Translations under genes and position numbers: made by a program
In this document: piece by piece, positions 10,577 to 58,835 of the stretch
Numbering within the stretch: the stretch's first letter is position 1
How the letters are laid out: each line of letters begins with the position of its first letter
Source of the DNA: Clostridiales bacterium
GTDB taxonomy: Bacteria; Bacillota; Clostridia; Oscillospirales; Oscillospiraceae
DNA: 61,527 bases
Direction of reading: 5' to 3'
Assembly: GCA_021202515.1 (NCBI GenBank)
Contig: JAJQCW010000028.1
Span: 1 to 61,527 of the forward strand
The notes under the pieces: model-generated
The model's database searches: none
Seen by the model: only the letters and a program-made list of their open reading frames with translations
What the model was told of the DNA's origin: nothing

Positions 10577-10673
10577 ATTGCATCTGCTCCTTCTCTATGG
10601 TTGGCGTTTTTCAAATTGAAAATGAAACTGTGTTCCTGTTACATTGGACATGTGGGATTTTTCACGCCCAAGC

Positions 10674-10920
10674 GCAAAAAAAGAACCCTTCCCCCTGTCT
10701 GCAACAGGACGAAAGGCCACCCTTCCGCGGTACCACCCGCTTTTGCGGCGCAATGCCGCACACTTGAGACCCGATAACGGGGGCCGACCGTCCATATCTC
10801 CATGGCTGCTCCCAGGCGAACGGAGCGGCGCTTTTCCGTCTCTGCTTACAGCCGGTGACAGAGGCTCTCTGGCGAAAAGGGGGTGCCGCTCATCTTCCCA
10901 TTCTCAGCTTGTACCCAATA
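10674..10920 (-). promoter_or_regulatory. T-box leader specific for tRNA-Phe, upstream of pheST
   Basis: On the minus strand the leader contains the T-box GGGTGGTACCGCGG (10738-10725), which forms the antiterminator and binds the free CCA end of uncharged tRNA. Upstream is the stem I pattern AGAGAGCC and GGCTGTAAGC. In the specifier loop TTC (10820-10818) is followed by GCCTGGGAGC, and UUC is a Phe codon, matching the genes. The competing terminator is the stem CCTTTCGTCCTGT/ACAGGGGGAAGG (about 10716-10688) followed by TTTTTTT (10682-10676). Uncharged tRNA-Phe should stabilise the antiterminator and turn on pheS and pheT. Confidence 0.9.
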
Positions 10921-10949
10921 CTTATAACACATCTCAAAAAAACTTGCAA
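10921..10949 (-). promoter_or_regulatory. Promoter of the pheST T-box transcript
   Basis: On the minus strand, -35 TTGCAA (10949-10944) and -10 TATAAG (10926-10921) are 17 bp apart, directly upstream of the T-box leader. Confidence 0.6.
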
Positions 10950-10956
10950 GGGGAAA

Positions 10957-10985
10957 TTGCAATTTTCCCCGTAAGCTGATAAAGT
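10957..10985 (+). promoter_or_regulatory. Divergent promoter for the 11015 gene, with an overlapping inverted repeat
   Basis: -35 TTGCAA (10957-10962) and -10 TAAAGT (10980-10985) with 17 bp between them. The -35 is the centre of a near-perfect inverted repeat, GGGGAAATT/AATTTTCCCC (10950-10970), which could be an operator or a remnant of a stem. The two promoters of this divergent region are only a few bases apart. Confidence 0.45.
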
Positions 10986-11014
10986 AGAGGGAGAAACAAA
11001 CGGAGGCGGTTTTT

Positions 11015-11401
11015 ATGATAAGCGTTATCATTACGATTTTGGCCTTTTGGTATTGGCCGTCCAGAGACCTGCGGAAGGTGCGGGCCGTCAAGGGCATCGG
11101 CCTGAACGAGGACGCCCGGCTGGATGAGGCCACGGTGGAGGGCTGGAAAGCCGGGCGCATCCGGGCCAAAAAGCTGTGGGCGGGCTTCGGCACCCTGATC
11201 ATCACCGGGGCCATGCTCAACTGGGTGGTGGACACCTTCTGGGTGGAGGACGGCATGACCCCCGACGCGACGCTGGCGACGGTATTCACCTACATCGAGC
11301 TGGTGCTCATCGGCATTGGGCTGCTGGGCTGGCTGGGCAGCCTCATTTACAGTGGCCGCAACAACAAAAAGTACCTGGGTCAACTGCGGGTGACGATGTG
11401 A
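11015..11401 (+). CDS. Small membrane protein of unknown function
   Basis: A 128-residue protein with three hydrophobic segments: the N-terminus (1-14), about 57-75 (GTLIITGAMLNWVVDTFW) and about 88-112. Between the first two is a charged cytoplasmic-looking stretch. I do not recognise the family. RBS GGAGG at about 11000 supports the ATG. Its stop overlaps the GTG start of nnrD by four bases (GTGA), so the two are translationally coupled. Nothing indicates a specific role. Confidence 0.75.
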   Translation: MISVIITILAFWYWPSRDLRKVRAVKGIGLNEDARLDEATVEGWKAGRIRAKKLWAGFGTLIITGAMLNWVVDTFWVEDGMTPDATLATVFTYIELVLIGIGLLGWLGSLIYSGRNNKKYLGQLRVTM

Positions 11402-17480: not shown

Positions 17481-19136
17481 ATGATCATGATTCAAGGCAA
17501 AGGCGTCTCCAAGGGCGTCGAGAAGGGCCCGCTGTATTTCTTCCAGCGCCCGGACACCACCATCGTCAAAACCACCGTCACCGACGTAGAAGCAGAAAAG
17601 GCGCGCCTGGCTGCCGCCCAGGCCGCATCCATGGAGCAGTTGGAAGTCCTGGCCGAGAAGTGCCGGGAAGAGGCCGGAGACGAGGCCGCCGTGCTGTTTG
17701 AGACCCACGCTATGTTCGTGGAGGACGAGGACTTTGTGGAGTGCATGACCTCCGTCATGGAGGAGGAATCCTGCAACGCTGAGTACGCCGTGGAGCAGGC
17801 TGGCGAGCAGTTCGCCGCCATGTTCGCCGCCATGGACGACGCCTATATGCAGGCCCGCGCCGCCGACATCAAGGACGTGGCCCGCCGCATCCTGGACAAC
17901 CTGATGGGCGTCGTGGCCGGCGGCATCGACTCCGATGTCCCCGTCATCCTGGCCGCCGACGACCTGGCCCCCTCCGAGACCCTCCAGTTGGACAAGTCCA
18001 AGATCCTGGCCTTCGTCACCCAGGGCGGCTCCGGCAACTCCCACACCGCCATCCTGGCCCGCACCATGGGCATCCCCGCCGTCTGCGGCGCGGGCGACGC
18101 CCTCAAGCAGGATTACAATGGCCGCACCGCCTACATCGACGGCGAGACCGGCGAGCTGTTCCTGGACCCCGATGAGATCACCCTGACCGGCCTGAAGGAA
18201 AAGCGCGAGAAGCAGATCGAGATGAAGAAGCTGCTGGAGACCATGAAGGGCCAGGAGGACGTGACCCTGGACGGCAAGAAGATGATGCTCTACTGCAACA
18301 TCGGCTCCCCCGAGGACGTGGCCGCTGTGCAGAACAACGACGGTCAGGGCATCGGCCTGTTCCGCTCCGAGTTCCTGTATCTGGCCGCCTCCGACTATCC
18401 CACCGAGGACGAGCAGTTCGAGGCTTATAAGCAGGTTGCCGCCGCCATGAACGGCAAGCGCGTCGTCATCCGCACCCTGGACATCGGCGCCGACAAGCAG
18501 GTGGACTACTTCGACATGAAGAAGGAAGAGAACCCCGCCATGGGCGTTCGTGCCATCCGTATCTGCCTGAACCGCCCCGAGGTGTTCCGCACCCAGTTGC
18601 GCGCCCTCTATCGTGCCTCCGCCTACGGCAAGGTAGCCATCATGTTCCCCATGATCACCTCTGTCTGGGAGGTCAAGGAGTGCAAGCGGGCCTGCGCCAA
18701 GGTCATGGCCGAGCTGGACGACGAGGGCATCCCCTACAACAAGGACACCGAGCTGGGCATCATGATCGAGACTCCTGCCTCCGTCTTTGTGGCCGACGCT
18801 CTGGCCAAGGAAGTGGACTTCTTCTCCGTGGGCACCAACGACCTGACCCAGTACACCCTGGCCTGTGACCGTCAGGCCAACGACCTGGGCAAGTTCTTCG
18901 ATCCTCACCATCCCGCCGTCCTCCGCGCTTTGAAGATGGCCACCGACGCCGCTCACAAGGCCGGCATCTGGATCGGCATCTGCGGTGAGCTGGGCGCTGA
19001 CATCTCCCTGCTGCCCACCTTCCTGGCCATCGGCATCGACGAGCTGTCTGTCTCCCCCACCTCCGTGCTGCCTCTGCGTGCTGAGATCCGCAAATCCATC
19101 GCCAAGACCTGCACCCTGGAAAAGCTGGAGTGCTGA
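17481..19136 (+). CDS. ptsI: Phosphoenolpyruvate-protein phosphotransferase (PTS enzyme I)
   Basis: A 551-residue enzyme I, which takes phosphate from phosphoenolpyruvate and passes it to HPr. It contains the N-terminal HPr-binding helices, the phosphohistidine domain with GGSGNSHTAILART (His188) and the C-terminal PEP-binding barrel with NRPEVFRTQLRAL, GIMIETPAS, SVGTNDLTQY and the active cysteine in CGELGAD. Start is ATG 17481 (a second ATG at 17487 is possible) behind AGGGGTG. No ptsH or sugar permease is nearby, so it is a stand-alone gene with its own strong promoter and leader. Confidence 0.95.
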   Translation: MIMIQGKGVSKGVEKGPLYFFQRPDTTIVKTTVTDVEAEKARLAAAQAASMEQLEVLAEKCREEAGDEAAVLFETHAMFVEDEDFVECMTSVMEEESCNAEYAVEQAGEQFAAMFAAMDDAYMQARAADIKDVARRILDNLMGVVAGGIDSDVPVILAADDLAPSETLQLDKSKILAFVTQGGSGNSHTAILARTMGIPAVCGAGDALKQDYNGRTAYIDGETGELFLDPDEITLTGLKEKREKQIEMKKLLETMKGQEDVTLDGKKMMLYCNIGSPEDVAAVQNNDGQGIGLFRSEFLYLAASDYPTEDEQFEAYKQVAAAMNGKRVVIRTLDIGADKQVDYFDMKKEENPAMGVRAIRICLNRPEVFRTQLRALYRASAYGKVAIMFPMITSVWEVKECKRACAKVMAELDDEGIPYNKDTELGIMIETPASVFVADALAKEVDFFSVGTNDLTQYTLACDRQANDLGKFFDPHHPAVLRALKMATDAAHKAGIWIGICGELGADISLLPTFLAIGIDELSVSPTSVLPLRAEIRKSIAKTCTLEKLEC

Positions 19137-19161
19137 GATAACACAATGTAAAACGAGCCAA

Positions 19162-19191
19162 GAGGCCGACCCGCGCAAACGGGTCGGCCTC
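19162..19191 (+). terminator. Terminator of ptsI
   Basis: Perfect 12-bp GC-rich arms (19162-19173 and 19180-19191) around CGCAAA, starting 25 bases after the stop. The following tract TCCCTC is poor in T, so the stem does most of the work. Confidence 0.65.
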
Positions 19192-19254
19192 TCCCTCATC
19201 CCCTCAAAAACGAATTTTTGTGAGAATCTCCCGGTTTTTCGATGGGTTCACAGA

Positions 19255-19283
19255 TTGCATATGGGCGGGGGATGTGCTATAAT
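19255..19283 (+). promoter_or_regulatory. Promoter of the surface-polymer cluster
   Basis: -35 TTGCAT (19255-19260), 17 bp, then TGC and -10 TATAAT (19278-19283), 70 bases before tagD. The extended -10 and perfect hexamer make it a strong candidate for driving tagD and the genes behind it. Confidence 0.75.
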
Positions 19284-19352
19284 CGTGCTGATTAAACATC
19301 CCGATTGGAAACAGTCGCTTTCCCCGATGGGGCGGCAAACTGGAGGAACAAC

Positions 19353-19742
19353 ATGAAAAAAGTCATCACCTACGGCACCTACGACCTGCTTCACTACGGC
19401 CACATCAATCTGCTGCGCCGGGCGAAGGAGCAGGGAGATTACCTGATCGTGGCCCTGTCTACCGACGAGTTCAACTGGAACGAGAAACAGAAGAAGTGCT
19501 ACTTCACCTACGAGCAGCGCAAGCAATTGCTGGAGTCCATTCGCTATGTGGACCTGGTCATCCCGGAGACCTGCTGGGACCAGAAGATCTCCGATGTGAA
19601 GGAGTTCCGGGTGGACACCTTCGTCATGGGCGACGACTGGGAGGGCAAGTTCGACTTCCTGAAGGACTACTGTGAGGTGGTTTACCTCCCCCGCACACCG
19701 GAGATCTCCACCACCCAGATCAAATCCGATCTGGGCCGCTGA
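19353..19742 (+). CDS. tagD: Glycerol-3-phosphate cytidylyltransferase
   Basis: A 129-residue nucleotidyltransferase that makes CDP-glycerol from CTP and glycerol-3-phosphate, the donor for poly(glycerol phosphate) teichoic acids. Motifs are TYGTYDLLHYGHINLLRRAK with the HxGH signature, the KKCYFTYEQR loop and the C-terminal EISTTQIKS. Length and motifs match TagD closely. ATG 19353 has a good GGAGGA. It opens the surface-polymer cluster. A related CDP-alcohol (for example CDP-ribitol or CDP-ethanolamine analogues) is less likely but cannot be excluded. Confidence 0.93.
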   Translation: MKKVITYGTYDLLHYGHINLLRRAKEQGDYLIVALSTDEFNWNEKQKKCYFTYEQRKQLLESIRYVDLVIPETCWDQKISDVKEFRVDTFVMGDDWEGKFDFLKDYCEVVYLPRTPEISTTQIKSDLGR

Positions 19743-19774
19743 CTGGGCCGACACGAGAAGAGGAAATAGGAACT

Positions 19775-22700
19775 GTGTACTCAAAAACCATCCAAAAGCG
19801 GGAATACCACCTGGGGCTGCTGATGCTGCTGGGCATCGCCTGCGTCCAGTGCCTGCCCACGGGGACCAACACGCGCTCAGTGCAGGCCCTGTGGAACTTT
19901 GTCCAAATCGCGGGGTATCCCGCCCTGGTGTTTCTGTTCGGCAGCCTTTCCCGGGAGGTCATCGGAACCAGAGAACGGCTGGTGCGGTTCAGCATGGCCT
20001 TCGCGGAGCTGTACCTGGTGCAAAAGCTGCTGCTGTTCTGGGTGCAGTCGTCCCTGGGGGAAACGCCCAGCTTTGCCCTGTTCAACACAACCGGGGCCTC
20101 GTGGCTGTATCTGGTGTTCGCGGAATACCTGCTGCTGATGCTGTGGCTGGAACAGAAAAAGTGGGACCGGCGGCTGCTCTTTGTTCTCGCCCTGGCGGTG
20201 GGGTGCCTTTCCGGTCTGCTGGGCTGGATCGGAGATAAATTCTGCCTGGCCCGGGCGCTGGTCTTTTTGCCCCTGTTTCTGTTGGGGCGGTGGACCGACG
20301 CAGAGCAGCGAGGCAAGCTGCTGGATCAACTCGGAACGAAGCTGCTCTCCCTGGCGGGGCTGATCGCTGTGCTGGCCGTCTGCTGGTGGAAATCGGACTT
20401 TATCTATCGCCTGGCTCCCTTCTTCAAGGGCAATAAGAGCTATGCCAGCCTCTCCAGCGGTCTCATCGGCCATTACGGGCCGCTGGTCCGGCTGGGCTGG
20501 TACGTGCTGGTGCTGTGCCTGATTTTGGGCCTGTTGGCCCTGATGCCCAACCGCCGACTGCCGGTGATCACCGACCTGGGTGGGGTCTGGCCGGAGGCGT
20601 ACCTCTGGCAGCGGCCCATCACCATCCTATTCAGCACCGTACTGATGGACCTGTTCTCCGCCCGGCTGGGCAAGCTGGGCTACCTGGCGGGGCTGGGGCT
20701 GGCGCTGGTTTTGGTGGTCATCGCCTGTCTGCCCTGGGCGGTGCGCCCGGTGAAGTGGGTGCTGCGGAACGGGAACTTCTGGAATCCACCGGACCCGCCC
20801 GCCCGAACGCTACACCCTGGCCGCCGTCCGAGCTTTTACCAACGGCACACCCTGGGAGTCCGCTGTGTGCTCATCTTTACGGCGGCGTTCGTGGTGCTGG
20901 CCACGGCGGTGGTGCTGCCCTTCTATACCAACGGAAAATCCATGGTCTGGACGGCGGACGGCCTTCAGCAGCAGTACGCTTCCATGGCGTTCCTGCGGAA
21001 CTATGCCCTCTCCGTGGCAGAGGAGTTCCGGACCACCGGCGTCCTTCACTTATCTCAGTTCACCTTCCAAGCTGGCATGGGCATGGACGTGCTGGATGTC
21101 ATCCGGCGGGACCCGACTATGCTGCTGTGCCTGTTCACGCCGCTGGACCACATGGAGGCCCTCTACAACATCCTGTGTCTGCTGCGCATCTATTGCAGCG
21201 GCCTGGCGGTGATGTGGCTGCTGCTGGAGTTGGAGCGCACCAGCAAGATGGAGATCATCTGCGGTGGCATGTCCTACGCCTTTTGCGGCTACTCTCTCTA
21301 CATCCTGGTGCGGCAGCCGGTGTTCCAGACCCCCTGTCTCATCTACCTGCCCTTGATGCTGGCCGGGGTCGAGCGGTTCCTTCACAAGCGCAAGGGCGGC
21401 CTGTTTTTGGTGACGGTGTGCCTGAACTTCATCAGCGGCTACTACCTGGCCTATATGAACACGCTGATGATGGCGCTGTACCTGCTGGTGCGGCTGATCT
21501 TCCTCCACGGCACCGACGTAAAACGCATCATCAGCGAAATTTTCAAGCTGATCGGTGTATACTTCTGGGGGATGGCCCTGTCCGGCGCCATTCTGCTGCC
21601 CACGGTCTACTCTTTCCTGACCAGCAGCCGCTCCGGGGAGCAGAACGGCCTGAACTCGCTGTTTGCCTATGGCTGGAACTATTACGAGACGCTGTTTGAC
21701 GACCTGACCAGGGCGGTCCCCAATGGACAAAACTGGGCCATCCTCGGCTTTGCCGGGCTGACGCTGTTGGCCATCGTGCTGCTGTTTTTCCAGAAGGAAA
21801 AGCGCTTCCGGCCCCTGAAAACCGGGGTCATTATCTGCACCGTAATGATCTGTCTCCCGCTGTTTGGCAAGATCATGAACGGCTTCGGCTACGTCACCAA
21901 CCGCTGGTGCTACGGCTTCGCGCTGATGGGTTCCCTGGTGCTGGCGTATATGCTGCCAGAGTTCCTGCACCTGGAGCCGCGGGAGAAGCGGGGCCTGCTG
22001 GTGGCGGGAGGGCTTTATATTGGTCTGGTCCTCTGTGACCAGGAGCCAAATACCGCCCGGTACGTGGGTCTGCTGCTGCTGGCGGGGACGCTGCTGGCGG
22101 TGCTGACCATGGATCTCTTTGCGTCCAACGCCTACCAGAAAAAGACGGTGCTGTCGCTGACCCTGACCGTGGCCCTGGTGGTCAACACCAACGCCGCTTT
22201 CCGGGAGGGCGTGGGCAACTACACCGCAGCCTGTGTGGATGCCGGAGAGGTGCAGAGCAGCCTGGCGGACACCGAGGCGGCTGCGGCTTCCACCCTGGGG
22301 GATGACAGCTTTTACCGGGTGGAGCAGTCCGCCCGGCGGTCCAACCAGTCCATGGGCGCGGGGTACTACGGCACCACTTCCTATTTTTCTGTCATCCCCT
22401 CCGGGATGACGGAGACTTATCTGGACTTCAACCTGAACACGGCGACCCAGTCCTTTGACCTGCGGGGCTTCGACGCCCGCGCCAGCCTGGAAGCTCTGAG
22501 CTGCGTCAAATATTACTGCGTGAAAGACGAGGACGACCGGGTCCCCTATGGTTTCACCTTGGCGGGAGAATCTGACGGCGCCCTGATTTATGAGAATCAA
22601 TACGCCCTCTCCCTGGGTTACACCTACACCTCCTACATGACCGAGGACGAGTACAACGCCCTGAACTTCGCGGAAAAGCAGCAGACGGTGCTGCAAAACG

Positions 22701-23530
22701 CCGTTGTCTCCGACGAGACGGCCCAGATCCTGGACGAAGCGGGGCTGACCGCGGGCGAGGCCGATTTGACAGTGCAGGAGGTGGACTGCCAGGCGGCGGA
22801 GACCCACGGCCTGACCCTGGACGAGGAGGCCAAAACCATCACCGTGGAGGAAGAAAACGCCTCCATCACCTTCACCTTCGACGGCGCGGCGGACTGCGAG
22901 ACCTATCTCTACCTGGAGGGCATCAACTACGCGAGCGAAAAATCCTCCGCCCTGTGCGAACTGAAGGTGCGAGCCAACGGCACCACCACCAGCACCCGCA
23001 TCCACGGAAAACGGCAGACCTATTACTTTGAGACCTCCGGGTTCTCCTTCAACCTGGGCTACAGCCAGGAGGGGACGACAGAGTGTACGCTGACCTTCTG
23101 CGAGACCGGTACATTTACCTATGAGGACTTCCGGGTGCTGTGTCTGCCCATGGAGGACTACGCAGAGGACGTGACCGCTCTGTCAGCGGTCATGCTGGAG
23201 GACGTGGACGAAAACGGCGACATCATCACCGGCACTGTCTCCGCCAGCGACACCCGGCTGCTGACCTTCTCCATCCCCTACACCAAGGGCTGGACTCTGT
23301 GGGTGGACGGCGAGGAAACGGAGCTGTTCCAGGTGGACAAACTCTATATGGGCGCGGTCATCGAGGCGGGTGACCACGAGATCGTGCTGAAATACGCCAT
23401 GCCCTGGCTGAACATCGGCATGGCCGCCAGCGGCGTAGCCCTGGCCGCCATCGCGGTGCGGGGCGTGTGCGTGGTGCTGCTGCGCCGGAGAAACGGCGCT
23501 GCCAAGACAAAACGTAAAGAGAAAAATTGA
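19775..23530 (+). CDS. YfhO-family membrane glycosyltransferase fused to an acyltransferase-3-like domain
   Basis: A 1251-residue membrane protein with two parts. Residues 1-340 resemble a ten-helix acyltransferase-3/fucose-4-O-acetylase-like domain (ALVFLFGSLSREVIG, LVFLPLFLLGRW), but the usual catalytic Gly-His after the first helix is replaced by VQCL, so it may be inactive or divergent. Residues 350-1240 are a YfhO-type GT-C protein: MVWTADGLQQQYASMAFLRNY loop, about ten helices, a large external region rich in beta strands and a final helix (WLNIGMAASGVALAAIAVRGV). YfhO in Bacillus and Listeria moves a sugar from undecaprenyl phosphate to lipoteichoic acid. Start GTG 19775, 32 bases after tagD. 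Confidence 0.8.
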   Translation: MYSKTIQKREYHLGLLMLLGIACVQCLPTGTNTRSVQALWNFVQIAGYPALVFLFGSLSREVIGTRERLVRFSMAFAELYLVQKLLLFWVQSSLGETPSFALFNTTGASWLYLVFAEYLLLMLWLEQKKWDRRLLFVLALAVGCLSGLLGWIGDKFCLARALVFLPLFLLGRWTDAEQRGKLLDQLGTKLLSLAGLIAVLAVCWWKSDFIYRLAPFFKGNKSYASLSSGLIGHYGPLVRLGWYVLVLCLILGLLALMPNRRLPVITDLGGVWPEAYLWQRPITILFSTVLMDLFSARLGKLGYLAGLGLALVLVVIACLPWAVRPVKWVLRNGNFWNPPDPPARTLHPGRRPSFYQRHTLGVRCVLIFTAAFVVLATAVVLPFYTNGKSMVWTADGLQQQYASMAFLRNYALSVAEEFRTTGVLHLSQFTFQAGMGMDVLDVIRRDPTMLLCLFTPLDHMEALYNILCLLRIYCSGLAVMWLLLELERTSKMEIICGGMSYAFCGYSLYILVRQPVFQTPCLIYLPLMLAGVERFLHKRKGGLFLVTVCLNFISGYYLAYMNTLMMALYLLVRLIFLHGTDVKRIISEIFKLIGVYFWGMALSGAILLPTVYSFLTSSRSGEQNGLNSLFAYGWNYYETLFDDLTRAVPNGQNWAILGFAGLTLLAIVLLFFQKEKRFRPLKTGVIICTVMICLPLFGKIMNGFGYVTNRWCYGFALMGSLVLAYMLPEFLHLEPREKRGLLVAGGLYIGLVLCDQEPNTARYVGLLLLAGTLLAVLTMDLFASNAYQKKTVLSLTLTVALVVNTNAAFREGVGNYTAACVDAGEVQSSLADTEAAAASTLGDDSFYRVEQSARRSNQSMGAGYYGTTSYFSVIPSGMTETYLDFNLNTATQSFDLRGFDARASLEALSCVKYYCVKDEDDRVPYGFTLAGESDGALIYENQYALSLGYTYTSYMTEDEYNALNFAEKQQTVLQNAVVSDETAQILDEAGLTAGEADLTVQEVDCQAAETHGLTLDEEAKTITVEEENASITFTFDGAADCETYLYLEGINYASEKSSALCELKVRANGTTTSTRIHGKRQTYYFETSGFSFNLGYSQEGTTECTLTFCETGTFTYEDFRVLCLPMEDYAEDVTALSAVMLEDVDENGDIITGTVSASDTRLLTFSIPYTKGWTLWVDGEETELFQVDKLYMGAVIEAGDHEIVLKYAMPWLNIGMAASGVALAAIAVRGVCVVLLRRRNGAAKTKRKEKN

Positions 23531-23560
23531 CCCGATCATCAATTTTGGAGGCTGATTTTC

Positions 23561-24694
23561 ATGCGTATTCCCTTTAACATTCCCCCTTCCACAGGCCGGG
23601 AGCCAGAATGTATGGCCCAGGCCATCGCCAACAACAAGCTCTGCGGCGACGGCCCCTTCACTCAGAAATGCCACCAGTGGCTGGAGGAAAAGACCGGCGC
23701 GGCCAAGGTGCTGCTGACCACCTCCGGCACCAGCGCTCTGGAAATGGCCGCCCTGCTGTGCGATGTGCAGCCGGGGGATGAGGTCATCATGCCCGCCTAC
23801 ACCTTTGTCTCCACGGCGGACGCCTTTGTCCAGCGGGGAGCCAAGGTGGTGTTTGTGGACATCCGGCCCGACACCATGAACATCGACGAGACCAAAATCG
23901 AGGACGCCATCACGGAAAAGACCACTGTCATCTGCGTGGTCCACTACGCAGGCGTGGGCTGCGAGATGGATACCATTCTGGACATCGCCCACCGCCACGG
24001 CCTGAAAGTGGTGGAGGACGCGGCGCAGGGCGTCATGGGCTGGTACAAGGGCAAGGCCCTGGGCGCCATCGGCGATGTGGGGTGCTACAGCTTCCACGAG
24101 ACGAAAAACTACACCATGGGCGAGGGCGGCGCCGTGCTGGTCAACCACCCGGAGCAGGTGGAGCAGGCGGAAATTTACCGGGAAAAAGGCACCAACCGCA
24201 GCAAGTTCATCCGAGGCCAGATCGACAAGTATACCTGGGTGGACTACGGCTCAAGCTATCTTCCCAGCGACCTGAACGCCGCCTATCTCTATCCCCAGTT
24301 GGAGGACGCGGACAAGATCAACGACGACCGCATGGCCTCCTGGAACCGCTACTACGAGGGGTTGACCCCTCTGGCTCAGGCGGGGAAGATCGAGCTGCCC
24401 GTTATCCCGGAGGGCTGCGTTCATAACGCCCATATGTTCTACATCAAGTGCAAGGACCTGGAGGAGCGGACGGCGCTCATCTCCTTCCTGAAGGAGCGGG
24501 ACATCTATTCCGCCTTCCACTACATCCCCCTGCACACCGCCCCCGCCGGCAAGCGTTTTGGTCGTTTCCACGGGGAGGACGTGTACACCACCAAAGAGTC
24601 CGAGCGGCTGACCCGCCTGCCGATGTATTACGGCCTGACGGCGGAGGACTGCCAGGAGGTCATCGACGCGGTGAAGGAATTCTATTGTCAATGA
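23561..24694 (+). CDS. DegT/DnrJ/EryC1/StrS sugar aminotransferase (RffA/WecE-like)
   Basis: A 377-residue PLP-dependent aminotransferase that converts a nucleotide keto-sugar to an amino sugar. The cofactor lysine is Lys182 in SFHETKNYTMGEGGAV, preceded by VVEDAAQG. The sequence is close to RffA/WecE, which makes dTDP-4-amino-4,6-dideoxygalactose, though the exact sugar cannot be deduced. It starts at ATG 23561, 30 bases after the YfhO-like gene. Its last codons and stop (TGTCAATGA) lie inside a heptamer repeat. No sugar dehydratase or epimerase is in the window, so its substrate must come from elsewhere. Confidence 0.88.
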   Translation: MRIPFNIPPSTGREPECMAQAIANNKLCGDGPFTQKCHQWLEEKTGAAKVLLTTSGTSALEMAALLCDVQPGDEVIMPAYTFVSTADAFVQRGAKVVFVDIRPDTMNIDETKIEDAITEKTTVICVVHYAGVGCEMDTILDIAHRHGLKVVEDAAQGVMGWYKGKALGAIGDVGCYSFHETKNYTMGEGGAVLVNHPEQVEQAEIYREKGTNRSKFIRGQIDKYTWVDYGSSYLPSDLNAAYLYPQLEDADKINDDRMASWNRYYEGLTPLAQAGKIELPVIPEGCVHNAHMFYIKCKDLEERTALISFLKERDIYSAFHYIPLHTAPAGKRFGRFHGEDVYTTKESERLTRLPMYYGLTAEDCQEVIDAVKEFYCQ

Positions 24695-24726
24695 GCAATT
24701 AGCAATGTGCAATGTGCAATTATGGG
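24689..24726. repeat. GCAATnn heptamer run, site B3
   Basis: Five units running over the stop codon of the DegT gene and followed by TATGGG, the same junction as in B4 and B5. Immediately downstream is half of an A repeat, so this may be a truncated composite. Confidence 0.85.
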
Positions 24727-24742
24727 GGAAACGGCCTGCTCC

Positions 24743-24780
24743 TGTAGGAGCGGCCCTTGGCCGCCCGGAAAACTGCTCTC
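24743..24780. repeat. GC-rich palindromic repeat, half copy A3
   Basis: Only the left arm, TGTAGGAGCGGCCCTTGGCC, and the start of the spacer remain; the mirror arm is missing. Confidence 0.75.
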
Positions 24781-24842
24781 TGATTGCACAGTGAGACCCG
24801 ATGAATCGCTTGTATTGTGTTAGAGAAACAAGGGAGAGAACT

Positions 24843-25790
24843 ATGCAAACCATCAGCTTTGTCATTCCCTGCTACGCCAGCGAAGGCTCCGTGGCCCTGG
24901 TCATGGACGAGATTCGTTCTGTAGTGGCCCAGCGCCCGGAATATGACTACGAGATCGTGGCGGTGAACGACTGTTCGCCGGACGGCGTCCTGGCCGTGCT
25001 GCGGCAGCAGGCCGCCCAGGACCGGCGGGTGAAGGTCATCGACCTTGCCAAAAACGGCGGGCGGCACAACGCCCTCATCTGCGGGTGCCACTACACCACC
25101 GGGGACTATGTGGCCTTCATCGACGACGACTTACAGTGTCCCACGGACCGTTTTTGGGATCTGCTGGCCCCGCTGGAGAGCGGCGACTACGACGTTTCCA
25201 TCGCCAAGTACCCCAAAAAGACTCAGTCGGGCCTGAAAAACTTCGGTTCCAAGGTCAACGACACCGTGGCCAACTGGCTGCTGGGCAAGGACAAGGATTT
25301 GAAATTCTCCAACTATTCGGTGATGCGCCGCTTCGTCAAGGACGAGGTCATTCGCTACACCAACCCCTATCCCTACCTGTCTGGCCTGATGCTCCGGGCC
25401 ACCAGCCGGGTGACCAACGTGGTCATGGAGGAGCGGGAGCGCACCATCGGCGTGGGACACTACAACTTCAAAAAGTCCTTCGCCCTGTGGATGAACAGCT
25501 TCACCGCCTTTTCCGTCAAACCCCTGCGGCTGGCCACCACCTTGGGCGTGATTTGCGCCTTTGTGGGGGTCATTACAGGCATTTACACCGTTATCCACAA
25601 GTTTTTGGTCCCCACTGTGGCGGTGGGCTACAGCTCCCTGATGGCCACCATGCTCTTTCTGGGCGGCATGATCATGTTCCTGCTGGGGCTGATAGGGGAG
25701 TATATTGGCCGCATTTATATCTCGCTGAACAACTCGCCCCAGTACGTGGTGCGGGAGACTCTGAACGTGGAGGAGGCGTCCGTCCGGTGA
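24843..25790 (+). CDS. Glycosyltransferase family 2, GtrB/ArnC/CsbB-like
   Basis: A 315-residue GT2 enzyme with an N-terminal GT-A domain (MQTISFVIPCYASEGSVA, FIDDDLQCP with the DDD metal motif, and ISAK-like acceptor region) and two C-terminal membrane helices (about 228-250 and 262-285). This is the DPM1/GtrB/ArnC design: transfer of a sugar from a nucleotide donor to undecaprenyl phosphate on the inner face. ATG 24843 follows GGGAGAGAA. Its stop overlaps the GTG of the ATP-grasp gene (GTGA), so the two are coupled. The sugar is likely the amino sugar made by the preceding aminotransferase. Confidence 0.9.
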   Translation: MQTISFVIPCYASEGSVALVMDEIRSVVAQRPEYDYEIVAVNDCSPDGVLAVLRQQAAQDRRVKVIDLAKNGGRHNALICGCHYTTGDYVAFIDDDLQCPTDRFWDLLAPLESGDYDVSIAKYPKKTQSGLKNFGSKVNDTVANWLLGKDKDLKFSNYSVMRRFVKDEVIRYTNPYPYLSGLMLRATSRVTNVVMEERERTIGVGHYNFKKSFALWMNSFTAFSVKPLRLATTLGVICAFVGVITGIYTVIHKFLVPTVAVGYSSLMATMLFLGGMIMFLLGLIGEYIGRIYISLNNSPQYVVRETLNVEEASVR

Positions 25791-27010
25791 AAAAGGTACT
25801 CATTGTCGGCGCGGGAGACTTCCAGCTCCCGCTGGTGCAGAAGGCCGCGGAACGCTATGAAGTGCTGCTGGCCGCGCCGGTCATTGGCGAGGCGTTCCGC
25901 CCCTATATCAGCAAAGAATTGCTCATCGACGTGCGGGCCAAGGAGGAAATTTTGGCCTTTGCTCAGGCGGAGCAGATCGACGGGGTCATCACCGACCAGA
26001 CGGACATCGCCGTGCGCACCGTGGCGTATGTGGCTCAGGAGATGGGCCTCCCCGGTATCGGCTACGAGACGGGCTGTCTCTTCACCGACAAGGCCCTGAT
26101 GCGGCAAAAGCTGACCCAATTGGGTATCCCTCAACTGCCCAACCGGACGGTGTTCTCCATGGAAGAGGCGGAGGACTACTACACCCAGTTGGGAGGCGCG
26201 GTCATCATCAAGCCCCTGGACACCCAGGGCAGCCGGGGCGTCCAGGCCGTCCACAGTGCAGCCGAGCTGCGGGAGAAGTACGCCGAGGCCGCCCGCTGGT
26301 CCTCCAACGGCGGGGTCATTGTGGAACGACTGGCTACGGGCCGGGAGTTCGTGGTGGAGGGCCTGTCCTTCAACTACCAGTTTGAAAACCTGACCTGCGG
26401 CGACACCCTCTATTTCGACATCCCCGACGCCTACGCCGCCAAGAGCCGCATCATGCCCTCTACGGCGGACGAGGAACTGACGCAGCGGGTGCTGGACCTG
26501 AACCGGCGCATTATCACCGGCTTCGGGCTGAAACAGGGCATCACCCACAGCGAGTATATCATGGACGGGGACGAAATCTACCTGATGGAGACCGCGGCCA
26601 GAGGCGGCGGGGTGTTCATCTCGTCGGATTTGATTTCCCTCTCCACCGGTCTGTGTACCGAGGAATTTCTGCTGAACATCGCCACCGGACAGCAAATCGA
26701 AATGCCGGAGATTTTGCCCCAGCAGTGCTATTGCGGGTATATGGCTTTCTATATTCCCGTGGGGAAGGTGACGGCTCTTTCCGGGGTGGAGGAAGTGCAA
26801 GCTCTGCCCTACGTCCACCGGAACCAGTTGGACAAGCTGCGCCTGGGCATGGAGAACCGGGAGGGCCACACCGACAAGACCTCCCGGCTGGCCCTCATCG
26901 TCTCCGCCCCCACGCGGGAGGAGCTGAACCGCCGGATGCAGCACATCCAGTCCCTACTCCGAGTGGAGGTTTCCACCGAGGAAGGGGTGCAGGGGCTGAT
27001 ATGGGAATAA
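25787..27010 (+). CDS. ATP-grasp ligase, CarB/PurK-like
   Basis: A 407-residue ATP-grasp enzyme. An N-terminal Rossmann-like part (VKKVLIVGAGDFQLPLVQKA) leads into the ATP-grasp fold (about 100-300) with AVIIKPLDTQGSRGVQ, TGREFVVEGLSF and the metal-binding DEIYLMETAARGGG; the C-terminal part carries a small beta domain. Such ligases join a carboxylate to an amine or thiol through an acyl phosphate. The start is GTG 25787, overlapping the GT2 stop. In this cluster it could attach an amino acid or short acyl group to the amino sugar. Substrates are unknown. Confidence 0.82.
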   Translation: MKKVLIVGAGDFQLPLVQKAAERYEVLLAAPVIGEAFRPYISKELLIDVRAKEEILAFAQAEQIDGVITDQTDIAVRTVAYVAQEMGLPGIGYETGCLFTDKALMRQKLTQLGIPQLPNRTVFSMEEAEDYYTQLGGAVIIKPLDTQGSRGVQAVHSAAELREKYAEAARWSSNGGVIVERLATGREFVVEGLSFNYQFENLTCGDTLYFDIPDAYAAKSRIMPSTADEELTQRVLDLNRRIITGFGLKQGITHSEYIMDGDEIYLMETAARGGGVFISSDLISLSTGLCTEEFLLNIATGQQIEMPEILPQQCYCGYMAFYIPVGKVTALSGVEEVQALPYVHRNQLDKLRLGMENREGHTDKTSRLALIVSAPTREELNRRMQHIQSLLRVEVSTEEGVQGLIWE

Positions 27011-27035
27011 AACGACCTCTGAAATGATTTGGCCG

Positions 27036-27185
27036 AATTTGCAATGTGCAATGAGCAATGTGCAATTATGGGAAAATCAAACGCTGACATTTCCCTGTTG
27101 ACCGTTGTTTTATCTGCGTTCGGGGACATACAGCCACGGCTGAAAACCCGGTCATTGCACATTGCACACTGCTAATTGCTAATTT
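27036..27185. repeat. Heptamer-ended element, full copy B4
   Basis: A 150-bp element: left run of GCAATnn units, a core from ATGGGAAAA to GGCTGAAAACCCGG, and a right run in inverted orientation (ATTGCACATTGC, GCTAATT). The core matches B5 (31983) and B11 (50043). The size and inverted ends resemble a MITE or REP-like unit. Confidence 0.85.
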
Positions 27186-27239
27186 TACATATACAACTAG
27201 TGATTTATCGCTTGAATAATGCGCAAAGGAGAACCGTCC

Positions 27240-28559
27240 ATGAGCTACGCCACAGACCGAAAGCTGGAAAACGTCTACGCCCTGCGTGACCTGACCACGC
27301 TTTACAACAAACCCATCCGGGCCAAGGACTACAAGCGCCTGGTGGAGACCCAGAACAAGAAAATTCAGGAGCTGATGCAGCGGGCCTGGGAGGTCCCCTT
27401 CTACCGGAGCCGGTTCGTGGCCAGCGACACCGTCCCCGGCGACTACCAGACCGCCGCCGACCTGTACAAGTTCCCGGTGCTGACCAAGGCGGAGCTGCGG
27501 GAGTGGATGGACGGCGAAGCCGCCGCAAACCCCAAAAAGTACGAGAGCTGGCACGTCGCCCCCACCTCCGGCTCCTCCGGCGCGCCGCTGCGCACCCTGG
27601 TTTCTCCCCAGGAGAACGCCTGGATGACCGCCAACTGGCTGCGGGTGCTGTCCATGCCGGGTTACAACCCCTTCACGGGCAAGACCATGTGCCGCCCCAA
27701 CAGCCTCCATGGAGCGGTGAAGGAGCGAGACTCCGTGGTGCAGCGGTTCGGCATCCTGCGCCGCAAGCAGATGTCTGACGCTCTGAAAAATCGCCTGACC
27801 AGCGAGCAACTGCTCCAGGAGATCAACGACTACAAGCCCGACTACCTCTATAACCACAAAAACGTGCTGGTGCGGGTGGCGGCCTACGCCAAGAAGAACA
27901 ACGTCCCCTGCCATCAGCCCAAGTTCTACACCCCCTTCGGCGAGATGATGGACGATGCCTCCCGGGAGTTGCTGATGGAGGTCTTTGGCCCCGGCCTGGT
28001 GGACGCCTACGGCATGAGCGAGACCGGCTCCTGCGTGGTGCGTCTCCCCGGACGGGACGAGTACCAGGTGAACAGCGACACCCACGTGGTCAACATCTAC
28101 AACGCCGACCTGAGCGGCCCCGCCGACGACGGCCCCGCCGTCATCACGCCCCTGTTCAAGACCGACCTGCCCATCATCAACTACGTCTCCGGCGACAGCA
28201 TGGAGACCTACACCAAGGCGGGCCTCCGGTTCGTCAAGCGGATCAAAGGCCGCATGAACGACGTCATTCACCACAAAAACGGCGACGTGACCGAGTGGGG
28301 CAATGTGGCGGTCATCATGAACTACATCAAAGAGGTCATCCAGTACCGGGTCATTCAGGAGGACTACGAGAACATCACCATCCTGATGGTCCGTGACCCC
28401 GGCGTGCCGGAGGAGCGGCAGACCGAAGTGGAGGCCATCATCACTGAGAAGCTGGGGGCGGTGCTGCGGCACGAGTTCGCCTTCCAATTCCAGTGGATGG
28501 AGGAGATTCCCAGCGACGCCAACGGCAAGCTGCGGATTCTGGTCAGCAAGATTCAGTGA
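27240..28559 (+). CDS. AMP-dependent ligase of the phenylacetate-CoA ligase/CapK family
   Basis: A 439-residue adenylate-forming enzyme of the COG1541 family. The P-loop-like TSGSSGAPLRT, the DAYGMSETGS motif and the hinge-domain region GRMNDVIHHKNG are present. CapK-type members occur in polysaccharide clusters, where they probably activate an acyl group rather than phenylacetate. The start is ATG 27240 after AAAGGAG. It lies between the ATP-grasp gene and the two SMR-type subunits, separated from the first by element B4. The acyl substrate is unknown. Confidence 0.88.
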   Translation: MSYATDRKLENVYALRDLTTLYNKPIRAKDYKRLVETQNKKIQELMQRAWEVPFYRSRFVASDTVPGDYQTAADLYKFPVLTKAELREWMDGEAAANPKKYESWHVAPTSGSSGAPLRTLVSPQENAWMTANWLRVLSMPGYNPFTGKTMCRPNSLHGAVKERDSVVQRFGILRRKQMSDALKNRLTSEQLLQEINDYKPDYLYNHKNVLVRVAAYAKKNNVPCHQPKFYTPFGEMMDDASRELLMEVFGPGLVDAYGMSETGSCVVRLPGRDEYQVNSDTHVVNIYNADLSGPADDGPAVITPLFKTDLPIINYVSGDSMETYTKAGLRFVKRIKGRMNDVIHHKNGDVTEWGNVAVIMNYIKEVIQYRVIQEDYENITILMVRDPGVPEERQTEVEAIITEKLGAVLRHEFAFQFQWMEEIPSDANGKLRILVSKIQ

Positions 28560-28580
28560 TTGACTGGCGCTGTTTGCGGT

Positions 28581-28735
28581 AAAACCCCTCCGCCACCGCC
28601 TAACGGCGGCGGCCCTCCTCCCCTTTCAGGGCAGGGAGCGTAGCGGAAGTGCCGCTTGACGGCGGAGGCAGAGGGGCGGTCAAATATGGAAAAGCCGTTC
28701 TTCGCGGAAAATGAGTGCTTTGCTGGATAGAAACG
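28581..28735. repeat. Intergenic element, copy C3, inverted
   Basis: Begins AAAACCCCTCCGCCACCGCC and ends with the inverted left extension (GAGGGGCGGTCA, GTTCTTCGCGG, TTTGCTGGA). It fills the space between the CapK-like gene and the next gene. Confidence 0.85.
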
Positions 28736-28788
28736 CCAACGAAACAGCAGAACTATCCTTTCGCATCTTAAAAAAGAAGGAAATACCC

Positions 28789-29148
28789 TTGTTAGATCAC
28801 TTTTTGGACAAAAAGCGCAACCTCTATGCGCTGGCGATCATCGCCATCTTCTTTGAGAGCCTGACCTCTCCCTTCCTGAAGCTGGGAGGACGTTACCCCT
28901 TCCTGTCCCCCATGTACCTGTTCTGGTTCTGCGCGGCGGTGGTGATTTTGGCGGGCTACGCCGTCGCGTGGCAGTTGATTTTGGAGCGGCTGCCCCTGAC
29001 CACGGCCTATCTGCGCAAAGGCATCAGCTATATGCTCATCTTCGTGTGGGCGGTGGTCATCTTCCACGAGGCCATCACCGTCAGGCAGGTGGTGGGCATC
29101 ATCGTGATTATCATTGGAATGGTGGTGAGCATGTCCGATGAACACTGA
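28789..29148 (+). CDS. Small EamA/SMR-type membrane subunit 1 (ArnE/ArnF-like)
   Basis: A 119-residue protein with four hydrophobic helices and a short charged N-terminus (LDHFLDKKRNLYALAIIAIFFESL). The shape is that of small multidrug-resistance/EamA half transporters such as ArnE and ArnF, which flip undecaprenyl-phosphate-linked aminoarabinose. I chose TTG 28789 after AGAAGGA: it gives exactly the length of its partner. The next in-frame start, ATG 28711, would translate part of repeat C3. It overlaps the second subunit by 11 bases, so a heterodimer is likely. Confidence 0.75.
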   Translation: MLDHFLDKKRNLYALAIIAIFFESLTSPFLKLGGRYPFLSPMYLFWFCAAVVILAGYAVAWQLILERLPLTTAYLRKGISYMLIFVWAVVIFHEAITVRQVVGIIVIIIGMVVSMSDEH

Positions 29149-29497
29149 CTTCATCACTCCTGCGGTGTGCTACGGCGCGGCGTTCATCGCGGTGTTCCTC
29201 TCCACCACCAGCCAAATTTTGCTCAAGCAGCAGGCCAATACCACCGCAAAAAAAGGCTTCATCTGGAAGTTCCTGAACCCGCGGGTCATCATCTCCTACG
29301 GGCTGCTGTTCCTCTCCCTGGCGCTGAACCAGGTGGCGCTGATCTACGTGCCGGTGTCGGTGCTGCCCTGCATCACGGCCACCAGCTTTATCTGGATCTT
29401 CCTGTTCGGCGCGGTGATTTTGAAGGAACATCCTAGCAAACGAAAGGTGTTGGGCGTGGTCATCATTCTGGCGGGTATCGCCATTTCGCGGCTGTAA
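29138..29497 (+). CDS. Small EamA/SMR-type membrane subunit 2 (ArnE/ArnF-like)
   Basis: A 119-residue protein with four helices, homologous in plan to the preceding gene (AAFIAVFLSTTSQILLKQQA; final LGVVIILAGIAISRL). A tandem pair of short, non-identical four-helix subunits is the pattern of heteromeric SMR transporters. As in the Arn pathway, the pair could flip the lipid-linked sugar made by the GT2 enzyme. Multidrug efflux is the main alternative, but the neighbours favour a flippase. It closes the cluster; no clear terminator follows before repeat A4. Confidence 0.8.
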   Translation: MNTDFITPAVCYGAAFIAVFLSTTSQILLKQQANTTAKKGFIWKFLNPRVIISYGLLFLSLALNQVALIYVPVSVLPCITATSFIWIFLFGAVILKEHPSKRKVLGVVIILAGIAISRL

Positions 29498-29541
29498 GGG
29501 AAGGAAAACTACCCACAGATGTTTTAATGTGATTCCATTTC

Positions 29542-29611
29542 TGTAGGTGCGGCCCTTGGCCGCCCGGAAAGCGTACACGGAATCTGCGGGCGGCCACGGG
29601 CCGCCCCTACA
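29542..29611. repeat. GC-rich palindromic repeat, copy A4
   Basis: A 70-bp copy with ends TGTAGGTGCGGCCCTTGGCC and GGCCACGGGCCGCCCCTACA. Confidence 0.9.
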
Positions 29612-29648
29612 CTTGCACAGCATAAAACTGTGGTCAACGAAGCCGCAG

Positions 29649-29696
29649 AAAAAACACCAGGGCGGAACCCACCTCACTGGGTACCGCTCTGGTGTT
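29649..29696. terminator. Bidirectional terminator between the SMR pair and the NUDIX gene
   Basis: Arms AACACCAG (29653-29660) and CTGGTGTT (29689-29696), extended by GCGG/CCGC, enclose a second small stem. On the minus strand it ends in TTTTTT, 15 bases past the NUDIX stop; on the plus strand CGTTTTA follows. Confidence 0.75.
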
Positions 29697-29710
29697 CGTT
29701 TTATCTCAAG

Positions 29711-30277
29711 TTATCCCAAAATCTCCTGGGTCAATCCGGCTCCGGCGGCCACCAACTCCAGCTCCTCCACATAGACGCAACTGGGGATGCCGTTGCCTTT
29801 CACCGCCGCAAGGCAGTCCCGGAAGGGAAACCACCGCACCTCCTCCACCTCGGAGGCTTGCAGGGTCAGTTCCTCCGGCTCCACGTCCCGCCACAGGGCG
29901 TAGACGTTGCTGACCTGGTTGTCCCAAAAGGGCCGGTCGTGAAACACAGAATGGCAGGAAAAACGACGCTGGCCGCAATAGACCAATTCCTCCGGCGCGG
30001 CGTCCAGCCCCAGCTCCTCTTTCAGTTCCCGCAGAGCGGAGGGAACAAAGTCCACCCCGGCAGGGATGTGACCAGCGCTGGAGATGTCGTAGCAGCCAGG
30101 GTAGGAGTCCTTTTCCTGGCTGCGTTTTTGCAGCAAAATTTCCACCGTATCCCCCCGGCGGCGCAGCAGCCAGACGTGGGAGGTGCGGTGGCGAATGCCC
30201 TCCCGGTGGGCAGTCTCCCGGTCCACGGTCAGGCCAGTGGGCTGGCCGTTCTTGTCTACAATATCCAAAAGTTCCAT
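29711..30277 (-). CDS. NUDIX hydrolase, IDI/YfcD-like
   Basis: A 188-residue NUDIX protein. The Nudix box GHIPAGVDFVPSALRELKEELG is complete. The N-terminus (MELLDIVDKNGQPTGLTVDRETAHREGIRHR) is the lead-in of the isopentenyl-diphosphate-isomerase/YfcD group, many of which are uncharacterised diphosphohydrolases. On the minus strand, a TATAAT (30313-30308) upstream of the ATG at 30277 may be the -10, with a weak -35. It stands alone between convergent and divergent genes. Substrate unknown. Confidence 0.88.
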   Translation of the reverse strand: MELLDIVDKNGQPTGLTVDRETAHREGIRHRTSHVWLLRRRGDTVEILLQKRSQEKDSYPGCYDISSAGHIPAGVDFVPSALRELKEELGLDAAPEELVYCGQRRFSCHSVFHDRPFWDNQVSNVYALWRDVEPEELTLQASEVEEVRWFPFRDCLAAVKGNGIPSCVYVEELELVAAGAGLTQEILG

Positions 30278-31982: not shown

Positions 31983-32145
31983 CAATGTGCAATGTGCAAT
32001 GTACAATGTGCAATTATGGGAAAACCGAACGCTAACGGTTCCCCGCTGAACGCATTGTTTTTCGGCGGCGTACCGGTCATACAGCGTGTGGCTGAAAACC
32101 CGGCCATTGCTCATTGCAAATTGCTAATTGCTAATTGCTAATTGA
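31983..32145. repeat. Heptamer-ended element, full copy B5
   Basis: A 163-bp element beginning two bases after the ilvA stop and ending against the recR ribosome-binding site. Left: four GCAATnn-type units. Core: ATGGGAAAACCG to GGCTGAAAACCCGG. Right: inverted units ATTGCTCATTGC and three GCTAATT. Confidence 0.9.
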
Positions 32146-44926: not shown

Positions 44927-45079
44927 CAATGTGCAATTTGCAATGAGCAATTAGCAATGGCCGGGTTTTCGGCCATGTGCGATACAGGGAAGTTGCAGGA
45001 AAACAGTTCCACCCCTCGCCGCAAGGCGACAGCGAAGCCTCCGGTTCCCCTTAATTGCACATTGCACATTGCTAATTAT
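44927..45079. repeat. Heptamer-ended element, copy B10, inverted
   Basis: About 153 bp. The left end carries GCAATnn units and GGCCGGGTTTTCGGCC, the reverse of the right end of B5; the right end is ATTGCACATTGCACATTGCTAATT. The core differs from B4/B5. Confidence 0.8.
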
Positions 45080-50038: not shown

Positions 50039-50042
50039 TGTT

Positions 50043-50187
50043 AATGTGCAATGAGCAATTTGCAATTATGGAGAAAAACGAATGTTGTCGTTTTCCTGCT
50101 GGACACATTGTTTTTGGCTGCGTCCCGGTCTTGCCACAATGGTGAAAACCCGGCCATTGCACATTGCTAATTGCTAATTGCTAATTC
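50043..50187. repeat. Heptamer-ended element, full copy B11
   Basis: A 145-bp element between ktrB and ktrA, core ATGGAGAAAAACG to GGTGAAAACCCGG, closely related to B4 and B5. It starts five bases after the ktrB stop and ends just before the ktrA ribosome site. Confidence 0.9.
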
Positions 50188-58684: not shown

Positions 58685-58835
58685 TTCAATTTGCAATTTG
58701 CAGTGTGCAATTAGCAATTATGCGTATTTCACGCCTGCCCGAGAACTTTTTCGTGAGTGGTACAGTTGCGCCCTGCAAAAAACTGACGTTTCGTTTACGC
58801 CATTGCACATTGCTAATCGCTAATTGCTAATTTGC
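58685..58835. repeat. Heptamer-ended element, copy B12
   Basis: About 150 bp between the convergent rnc and mutY genes: left GCAATnn units, right ATTGCACATTGCTAATCGCTAATTGCTAATT. It supplies the last seven codons of mutY. The core has little in common with B4/B5, so only the ends are shared. Confidence 0.85.

Follow-up and report, generated by a model that had tools for sequence, protein, structure and literature searches.

Transmembrane glycosylation of teichoic acids has been described with galactose, glucose and N-acetylglucosamine as the named sugars, and with flippases of the GtrA or Wzx type (PMC8035078; papers are cited here by PubMed Central number). GtcA has been described as homologous to the small multidrug resistance (SMR) transporters (PMC5836110), and SMR transporters have been listed as a third flippase class for lipid-linked intermediates (PMC7389260). 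Pentofuranose systems, with candidates in Gram-positive bacteria, use a small EmrE/ArnE-like flippase that was termed a MATE family member by the authors (PMC11127046). Here we describe a cluster of eight genes, predicted to make and export an amino sugar, in an uncultured gut bacterium, a member of the Clostridiales in the Oscillospiraceae. The window, the whole stretch of DNA that was analysed, is 61,527 nucleotides in length and corresponds to contig C57; the assembly spans 2.63 Mb and is estimated as 97.55% complete. No description of the eight-gene set was found among the titles and abstracts listed by searches of an open-access library.

The genes are tightly spaced between positions 19353 and 29497 of the window. 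All of them are on the plus strand, in the order given by a preliminary description of this DNA, and both SMR-type subunits have the 119 residues stated there. By eye, a plausible ribosome-binding site precedes each of the eight genes, which are as follows:

19353..19742, plus strand: tagD, glycerol-3-phosphate cytidylyltransferase, 129 residues (TIGR01518)
19775..23530, plus strand: YfhO fusion, 1251 residues, the sole YfhO found in the genome; acyltransferase-fold domain (residues ~1-345), GT-C domain (~356-945) and carbohydrate-binding-module (CBM)-like beta-sandwich (~999-1126)
23561..24694, plus strand: wecE-type aminotransferase of the DegT family, 377 residues (over the cutoffs of both TIGR02379 and NF008687)
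24843..25790, plus strand: GT2 polyprenyl-phosphate glycosyltransferase, 315 residues, GtrB/ArnC/PgfS-like
25787..27010, plus strand: ATP-grasp amide ligase of type A, 407 residues, L-amino-acid-ligase-like
27240..28559, plus strand: CapK/PaaK-like AMP-forming ligase, 439 residues, with conserved adenylation motifs
28789..29148, plus strand: SMR1, predicted flippase subunit, 119 residues, TTG start
29138..29497, plus strand: SMR2, predicted flippase subunit, 119 residues, ATG start

Homology firmly identifies WecE, the GT2, the GT-C transferase and TagD, and also places CapK and the ATP-grasp protein in their enzyme classes. We lean towards a pathway in which an N-modified 4-amino-4,6-dideoxy-D-galactose (Fuc4N) is loaded onto a lipid, flipped by the SMR pair and transferred by YfhO to poly(glycerol phosphate). 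RmlB and WecE would produce dTDP-Fuc4N; the ATP-grasp ligase, of either type, would attach an amino acid or another acyl group to the 4-amino group, and CapK would activate another acid, destined for the same sugar. The GT2 would load the Fuc4N sugar onto undecaprenyl phosphate; SMR1 and SMR2, probably as an antiparallel heterodimer, would carry the lipid-linked sugar across the membrane, and the GT-C domain of YfhO, aided by the CBM-like domain, would transfer it to poly(glycerol phosphate). This polymer would be built from the CDP-glycerol of TagD by TagB/TagF-type enzymes and would most likely be wall teichoic acid. Flipping of the lipid-linked sugar by the SMR pair is likely; N-acyl or aminoacyl modification by the ATP-grasp protein and CapK is plausible. 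The change in surface charge suggested in the preliminary description would depend on the N-substituent.

The aminotransferase scored 632.4 bits with TIGR02379 (cutoff 434.85) and 626.8 bits with NF008687 (cutoff 375). It is 66.6% identical to Escherichia coli WecE and 30% identical to ArnB, and its best solved relatives in the Protein Data Bank (PDB) are 4piw (572 bits) and 6blg; the ArnB model gave only 184 bits, against a cutoff of 631. ArnB identity is thus ruled out by score, identity and PDB relatives. The gene is firmly assigned by homology as a WecE equivalog, and the ArnB-type step that had been proposed for it falls away. The genome also encodes RmlB on contig C24 (496.8 bits, cutoff 365.1). 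Given the identity of WecE and the presence of RmlB, the sugar nucleotide is most likely dTDP-Fuc4N, and the sugar of the cluster is probably this 6-deoxyhexose, not 4-amino-4-deoxyarabinose (Ara4N). No ArnA/ArnD-type gene is present among the cluster genes, where the ATP-grasp ligase and the PaaK-like AMP ligase are found instead. The galacto configuration is predicted from homology alone, and one of the two WecE models passed carries a title for the gluco isomer. The Lachnospiraceae locus L220 has RmlB (494 bits) next to the SMR pair, on the opposite strand. In genome G217 (L087/L164), wecE is split into two reading frames within an otherwise complete cluster, which reflects either inactivation or an assembly error.

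To describe the cluster in related genomes, locus gene content was taken from profile and tblastn matches; automatic gene calls are poor on these GC-rich loci, with antisense open reading frames. The genus sample comprises 32 genomes, and stretches were studied for 29 of them; G210, G212 and G214 have no SMR2 match. Among the 29 genomes with an SMR2 match, 28 have one of the type seen in the cluster, with further cluster genes in the stretch, and G225 has only a distant type. Twenty-one of the 29 stretches hold all six of yfhO, wecE, GT2, CapK, SMR1 and SMR2, with SMR2 adjoining SMR1 in these 21. Six of the eight incomplete stretches reach a contig end; the other two are L076 (G222) and L099 (G225). 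L076, a contig of 5.3 kb, reads yfhO-GT2-SMR2 without wecE, CapK or SMR1 between them, and wecE is on another contig; this misfit, counted as incomplete, may be due to rearrangement or assembly error. WecE is encoded in 27 of the 32 genomes, and the three genomes without SMR2 also lack WecE. The genes of the cluster belong together well beyond chance, and the co-occurrence that the preliminary description had asked about is borne out within the genus. The genus also has a second module, with GT2, ATP-grasp and SMR-pair genes and neither CapK nor wecE in the stretch (L094, L095, L097, L100-L103, also L092); in L103, a pyridoxal-phosphate (PALP) enzyme is encoded upstream.

Public genomes were also searched with the aligned CapK sequences, which yielded 76 loci. 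In one clade, whose loci are mostly titled Lachnospiraceae, CapK stands without any other cluster gene in the stretch at 25 loci, some on short contigs; strict binding of CapK to the cluster is ruled out by its unlinked occurrence in many other genomes. From the 76 loci we hand-picked 17 CapK-bearing genomes (stretches L213-L229). All 17 encode WecE, with 64-74% identity. In 13 of them, which carry an unlinked CapK of the Lachnospiraceae clade, wecE, GT2, SMR1 and SMR2 form a same-strand group at another place, which includes ATP-grasp in 12 of the 13 genomes; Sarcina sp. DSM 11001, for instance, has wecE, GT2, ATP-grasp and the SMR pair, with CapK unlinked. At L131/L222, CapK is together with wecE, GT2 and the SMR pair. 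At L220, the wecE-GT2-ATP-grasp-SMR operon and a YfhO gene are flanked by genes (1-1009 and 10171-11103) for repeat proteins, the repeats being, as judged by eye, of the choline-binding type.

Two samples of 200 genomes each were also analysed, one from the family of Sarcina sp. DSM 11001, taken as Lachnospiraceae from the CapK grouping alone, and one from the family of the window. In the Sarcina family, 8 genomes have CapK at E up to 1e-60 and 64 have WecE at E up to 1e-120; each of the 8 CapK genomes also carries WecE (Fisher p = 8.0e-5, or 2.5e-4 minus the seed genome, kinship not corrected in either value). In the window's family, strong CapK was found in 4 genomes, all of this genus and including the window's own, and WecE in 9, including those 4. 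We further inspected 20 stretches around WecE whose genomes have no strong CapK, 15 drawn from the Sarcina family and 5 from the window's family, a score-chosen and non-random set. A GT2 of the cluster type (>290 bits) is present in 15 of them, ATP-grasp in 8, the SMR pair in 5 and YfhO in 3. On these counts, undecaprenyl-phosphate-Fuc4N pathways may be common in gut Clostridia.

The TagD protein matched TIGR01518 with 209.6 bits (cutoff 165.4), and tagD, like yfhO, was found at one place only in the genome. All 32 genus genomes encode CDP-glycerol glycerophosphotransferases (PF04464), and the window's genome has two such genes adjoining an ABC-2 permease on contig C24. Six sister genomes carry a PF04464 gene upstream of tagD in the same orientation, at a distance of 213-284 bp; a seventh has one immediately ahead of yfhO, with no tagD. 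This context favours a glycerol-phosphate polymer as acceptor without proving it; judged from gene context, such an acceptor is fairly likely. In the teichoic-acid-like locus of the window's genome, a TIR protein of the CAP12/Pycsar-effector family (L190:12974-13642; PF10137, 66 bits) adjoins the ABC-2 permease.

A different polymer could serve in place of wall teichoic acid made from CDP-glycerol, namely lipoteichoic acid or another secondary polymer, a choice we regard as unlikely. Lipoteichoic acid made by LtaS requires no CDP-glycerol, whereas tagD leads the cluster as the sole copy found in the genome (LtaS was not searched for), and PF04464 genes adjoin tagD in the sister genomes. In its favour, YfhO of Bacillus subtilis and of Staphylococcus aureus modifies lipoteichoic acid, and that of Listeria monocytogenes modifies wall teichoic acid (PMC8035078).

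As to the ligases, the ATP-grasp protein scored over the cutoff of ATP-grasp_4 and just under that of LAL_C2 (28.2 bits, cutoff 29.4); among PDB entries it matched BacD and L-amino acid ligases with E about 1e-9 to 1e-11. Residues K102, K142, R150, E180, E268 and R272 are invariant in 19 aligned rows. The enzymes of type A are 58-98% identical to that of the window; type B is only 22-28% identical to type A, and its members in the genus are 63-100% identical to the L036 enzyme. The slot may hold type A, type B, both in tandem (L035/L112) or none. The most likely start of CapK is the ATG at 27240. CapK has no Pfam match, and the PaaK model gave 55.9 bits (cutoff 646.3); its PDB relatives are PaaK, AjiA1 and PaaK-like ligases. 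The motifs TSGS.G, YG.SE, GRMNDVI and GKLR are invariant in 16 rows; these are core motifs of the PaaK-like ANL enzymes, the class to which CapK is assigned. In the CapK tree (midpoint root, one long row), 11 rows from the part of the genus that includes the window group with 24 others, 21 of which are titled Lachnospiraceae, and 16 rows of the genus stand apart (support 100/99). This split suggests that CapK was transferred between families.

It is also conceivable, though improbable, that the ATP-grasp protein and CapK make a separate amide and that the cluster is two neighbouring pathways. The solitary CapK at 25 loci and the clusters devoid of ATP-grasp would fit such a division. However, WecE is encoded in every CapK-bearing genome tested (17/17 and 8/8); the ATP-grasp gene is placed between GT2 and the SMR pair in the genus and in the wecE stretches of 13 of the 17 other CapK carriers, and it recurs near WecE in 8 of the 20 stretches from genomes without strong CapK.

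The GT2 was described beforehand as ArnC/GtrB-like, and this description holds: against PDB entries it scored 118 bits with GtrB, 98 with ArnC and 30 with dolichol-phosphate-mannose synthase, so that a dolichol-phosphate-mannose-type enzyme is ruled out. Among curated models, PgfS gave 151.9 bits (cutoff 500) and ArnC 117.2 bits (cutoff 529); the protein resembles ArnC without being its equivalog. By homology only, it is predicted to be a GT-A enzyme making an undecaprenyl-phosphate sugar. In its structural model, the YfhO fusion combines a GT-C transferase and a carbohydrate-binding domain; structural comparison gave ArnT among the matches of the GT-C fold, as had been anticipated, and the highest Z scores belonged to protein oligosaccharyltransferases. 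Its N-terminal domain has the fold of Acyltransferase-3 (AT3)/TmAT membrane acyltransferases, whose motifs are a conserved His in the first transmembrane helix (R/K-X10-H) and an RXXR loop (PMC9558356). Foldseek without a second aligner gave nothing under E 0.001 for this domain. No conserved His or RXXR column was found in 16 aligned rows, where position 12 is His or Asn; an active AT3 O-acetylase fits the fold, but in view of these columns we do not claim catalysis.

The same lipid-linked Fuc4N pathway might have surface proteins as its end point, like the Streptococcus mutans Pgf system, which acts on Cnm and WapA (PMC5856776); we consider this quite improbable. PgfS and PgfM2 (75.1 bits) are the top NCBIfam matches of the GT2 and YfhO, and the high-Z oligosaccharyltransferases also speak for it, but both scores are far under the cutoffs (500 and 1500). 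Moreover, tagD adjoins yfhO in 13 stretches, glycerophosphotransferase genes adjoin tagD in 6 genomes, and in Bacillus, Listeria and Staphylococcus the substrates on which YfhO and CsbB act together are teichoic acids (PMC8035078).

The reading frames of SMR1 and SMR2 overlap by 11 bases. SMR1 scored 34.7 bits with ArnF, 32.4 with ArnE and 26.7 with EbrA, and the best curated match of SMR2 is ArnE (28.8 bits). The ArnE/ArnF-like pair of the preliminary description thus stands as to best curated matches and not as to equivalog status, the cutoffs being 99 and 92. This SMR/EamA-type pair is the sole flippase candidate among the cluster genes; no GtrA match was found in the cluster at E 0.001 (GtrA elsewhere in the genome was not searched for). 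Lipid-transporting SMR proteins are often without the central Glu and frequently have Asn instead, a usual trait and not a strict one (PMC9574504). SMR1 has Glu at the position of EmrE Glu14 in 27 of 27 rows (L106-L181) and in 14 of 14 rows (L216-L229); both sets come from CapK-bearing genomes, share one genome and include near-identical species. SMR2 has no Glu at this position, and it is also missing, by eye, in 5 of 5 SMR1 proteins encoded at WecE loci where the genome has no strong CapK, and in 5 aligned SMR1 proteins of a paralogous module. That the pair exports drugs or small cations and has no link to the glycan genes, as the Glu of SMR1 would allow, is very improbable and disfavoured by the ArnE/ArnF matches, which outscore EbrA/EbrB, by the placement of the pair, which follows the same genes both in the genus and in 14 other genomes, and by the lack of any other recognised flippase among the eight genes.

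Several observations weigh against the pathway from dTDP-Fuc4N to poly(glycerol phosphate) that we prefer. The inference from tagD to the acceptor is backed by the single TagD and its PF04464 neighbours and weakened by the fact that tagD is missing from all but 13 of the 21 six-gene stretches; several stretches stop close to yfhO, but L073, L075 and L081 extend far enough and still show no tagD. In the 17 stretches L213-L229 tagD was not detected, and only 4 of them (L213, L214, L215 and L220) contain YfhO, so a different acceptor may be used there. The claim that the genes travel together holds within the genus; outside it, the SMR pair or YfhO is sometimes apart. In L213 (Anaerobutyricum hallii), L214 (Mogibacterium kristiansenii) and L215 (Hornefia butyriciproducens), wecE lies close to GT2 and YfhO, but a search of its surroundings gave no SMR pair; A. 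hallii DSM 3353 has wecE, GT2, ATP-grasp, CapK and YfhO. WecE without CapK is common (56 of 192 CapK-negative genomes of the Sarcina family). Since all CapK genomes tested have WecE and many WecE genomes are without CapK, CapK seems to need the product of WecE, whereas WecE does not seem to need CapK. ATP-grasp is missing in L075/L144, L140 and L228 and is dispensable to the core; an exchangeable or absent slot enzyme fits the pattern of a tailoring enzyme. Finally, the SMR and GT2 scores are far under the ArnE, ArnF and ArnC cutoffs. On the other side, none of the outcomes that had been named as fatal to the proposal, namely rare co-occurrence, a drug-exporter-like SMR pair and a dolichol-phosphate-mannose-type GT2, arose.

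A more specific proposal, which we put forward tentatively, is that CapK, the exchangeable ATP-grasp enzyme and the Glu-bearing SMR pair form a module for the synthesis and export of aminoacylated, positively charged Fuc4N on undecaprenyl phosphate. It would provide a sugar-borne route to aminoacylated teichoic acids in at least two families of gut Clostridia, beside Dlt, with a species-specific head group set by the ligase in the slot.

Transcription of the cluster from one strong promoter, as initially described, was not confirmed: a consensus scan of 19050-29800 gave no plus-strand promoter. One candidate was read from the sequence upstream of tagD:

19255..19283, plus strand: candidate promoter, weak, TTGCAT and TATAAT separated by 17 nucleotides

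It combines a perfect extended -10 element (TGcTATAAT, 19275-19283) with a poor -35 element (TTGCAT at 19255), and is graded as weak because the consensus scan missed the pair. Gaps of ~150-230 bp at 24694-24843, 27010-27240 and 28559-28789 contain repeated elements, which leaves a single transcript unproven. Intergenic elements of ~150 bp, with terminal heptad runs (GCAATNN)n and their inverse, lie at 24689-, 27035-27184, 31983-32136, 40864-, 44927-45077, 50035-50186 and 58687-58832 of the window. The gap between the ATP-grasp and CapK genes is 229 bp with one copy of the element, compared to 55 bp in the relatives L106 and L107; the element is thus polymorphic. Intergenic palindromes of 70 nucleotides (TGTAGGGGCGGCC...GGCCGCCCCTACA) are found at 12983, 15142, 29542 and 30607, and also at 24741 and 40917.

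The gene set occurs in part or whole in other gut Clostridia and would be a new route to surface change; named cultured strains, Sarcina sp. DSM 11001 and Anaerobutyricum hallii DSM 3353, carry parts of it. If the pathway is true, the known surface chemistry of Gram-positive bacteria would be extended by a 4-amino-6-deoxy sugar made on site, an SMR pair acting as flippase and interchangeable amide ligases. It might also help to explain the frequency of WecE in gut Clostridia (64 of the 200 genomes sampled from one family), and SMR lipid flippases could be studied in a natural setting.

Compared to known systems, the cluster shares with the Fuc4NAc branch of enterobacterial common antigen (RffG/RffH/WecE/WecD/WecF) an RmlB-type dehydratase and WecE leading to dTDP-Fuc4N. 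Different from that branch, no WecD-type acetyltransferase was recognised in the cluster, and the sugar would presumably be passed by the GT2 to undecaprenyl phosphate, not by WecF to the lipid intermediate of the antigen. In the Fuc4N capsule cluster of Clostridium butyricum, the dTDP-Fuc4N genes likewise adjoin teichoic-acid export genes (TagGH); Fuc4N is a proposed capsule sugar there, and the accessible part of the source mentions no SMR pair, YfhO or ligases (PMC12342839). The S. mutans Pgf system (PgfS, PgfM1, PgfE and PgfM2) provides the closest curated models for the GT2 and YfhO; its acceptors are surface proteins, and its four-gene operon has, in the accessible part of the source, no named counterparts of WecE, the ligases or the SMR pair (PMC5856776). 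With the Arn pathway of lipid A, the cluster shares a 4-amino sugar, an ArnC-like GT2, a paired SMR flippase and transfer by a GT-C enzyme on the outside. It differs from Arn in having WecE (for a 6-deoxyhexose) for ArnB, no ArnA or ArnD in the cluster, a YfhO sequence in place of ArnT and a presumed Gram-positive polymer as acceptor. CsbB/GtcA/YfhO has in common with the cluster a GT2 acting on undecaprenyl phosphate, a small membrane protein as flippase, a YfhO GT-C enzyme and teichoic acid as the likely acceptor. The cluster additionally has an amino-deoxy sugar made on site by WecE, the ATP-grasp and CapK ligases and an acyltransferase-fold domain on YfhO, and it has the SMR pair for the GtrA-type flippase. 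Of the components that define multi-component transmembrane glycosylation, it holds a predicted GT-A and a GT-C enzyme but not a GtrA/Wzx-type flippase; given the homology of GtcA to SMR transporters and the existence of an SMR flippase class, this difference is one of subfamily and not of kind.

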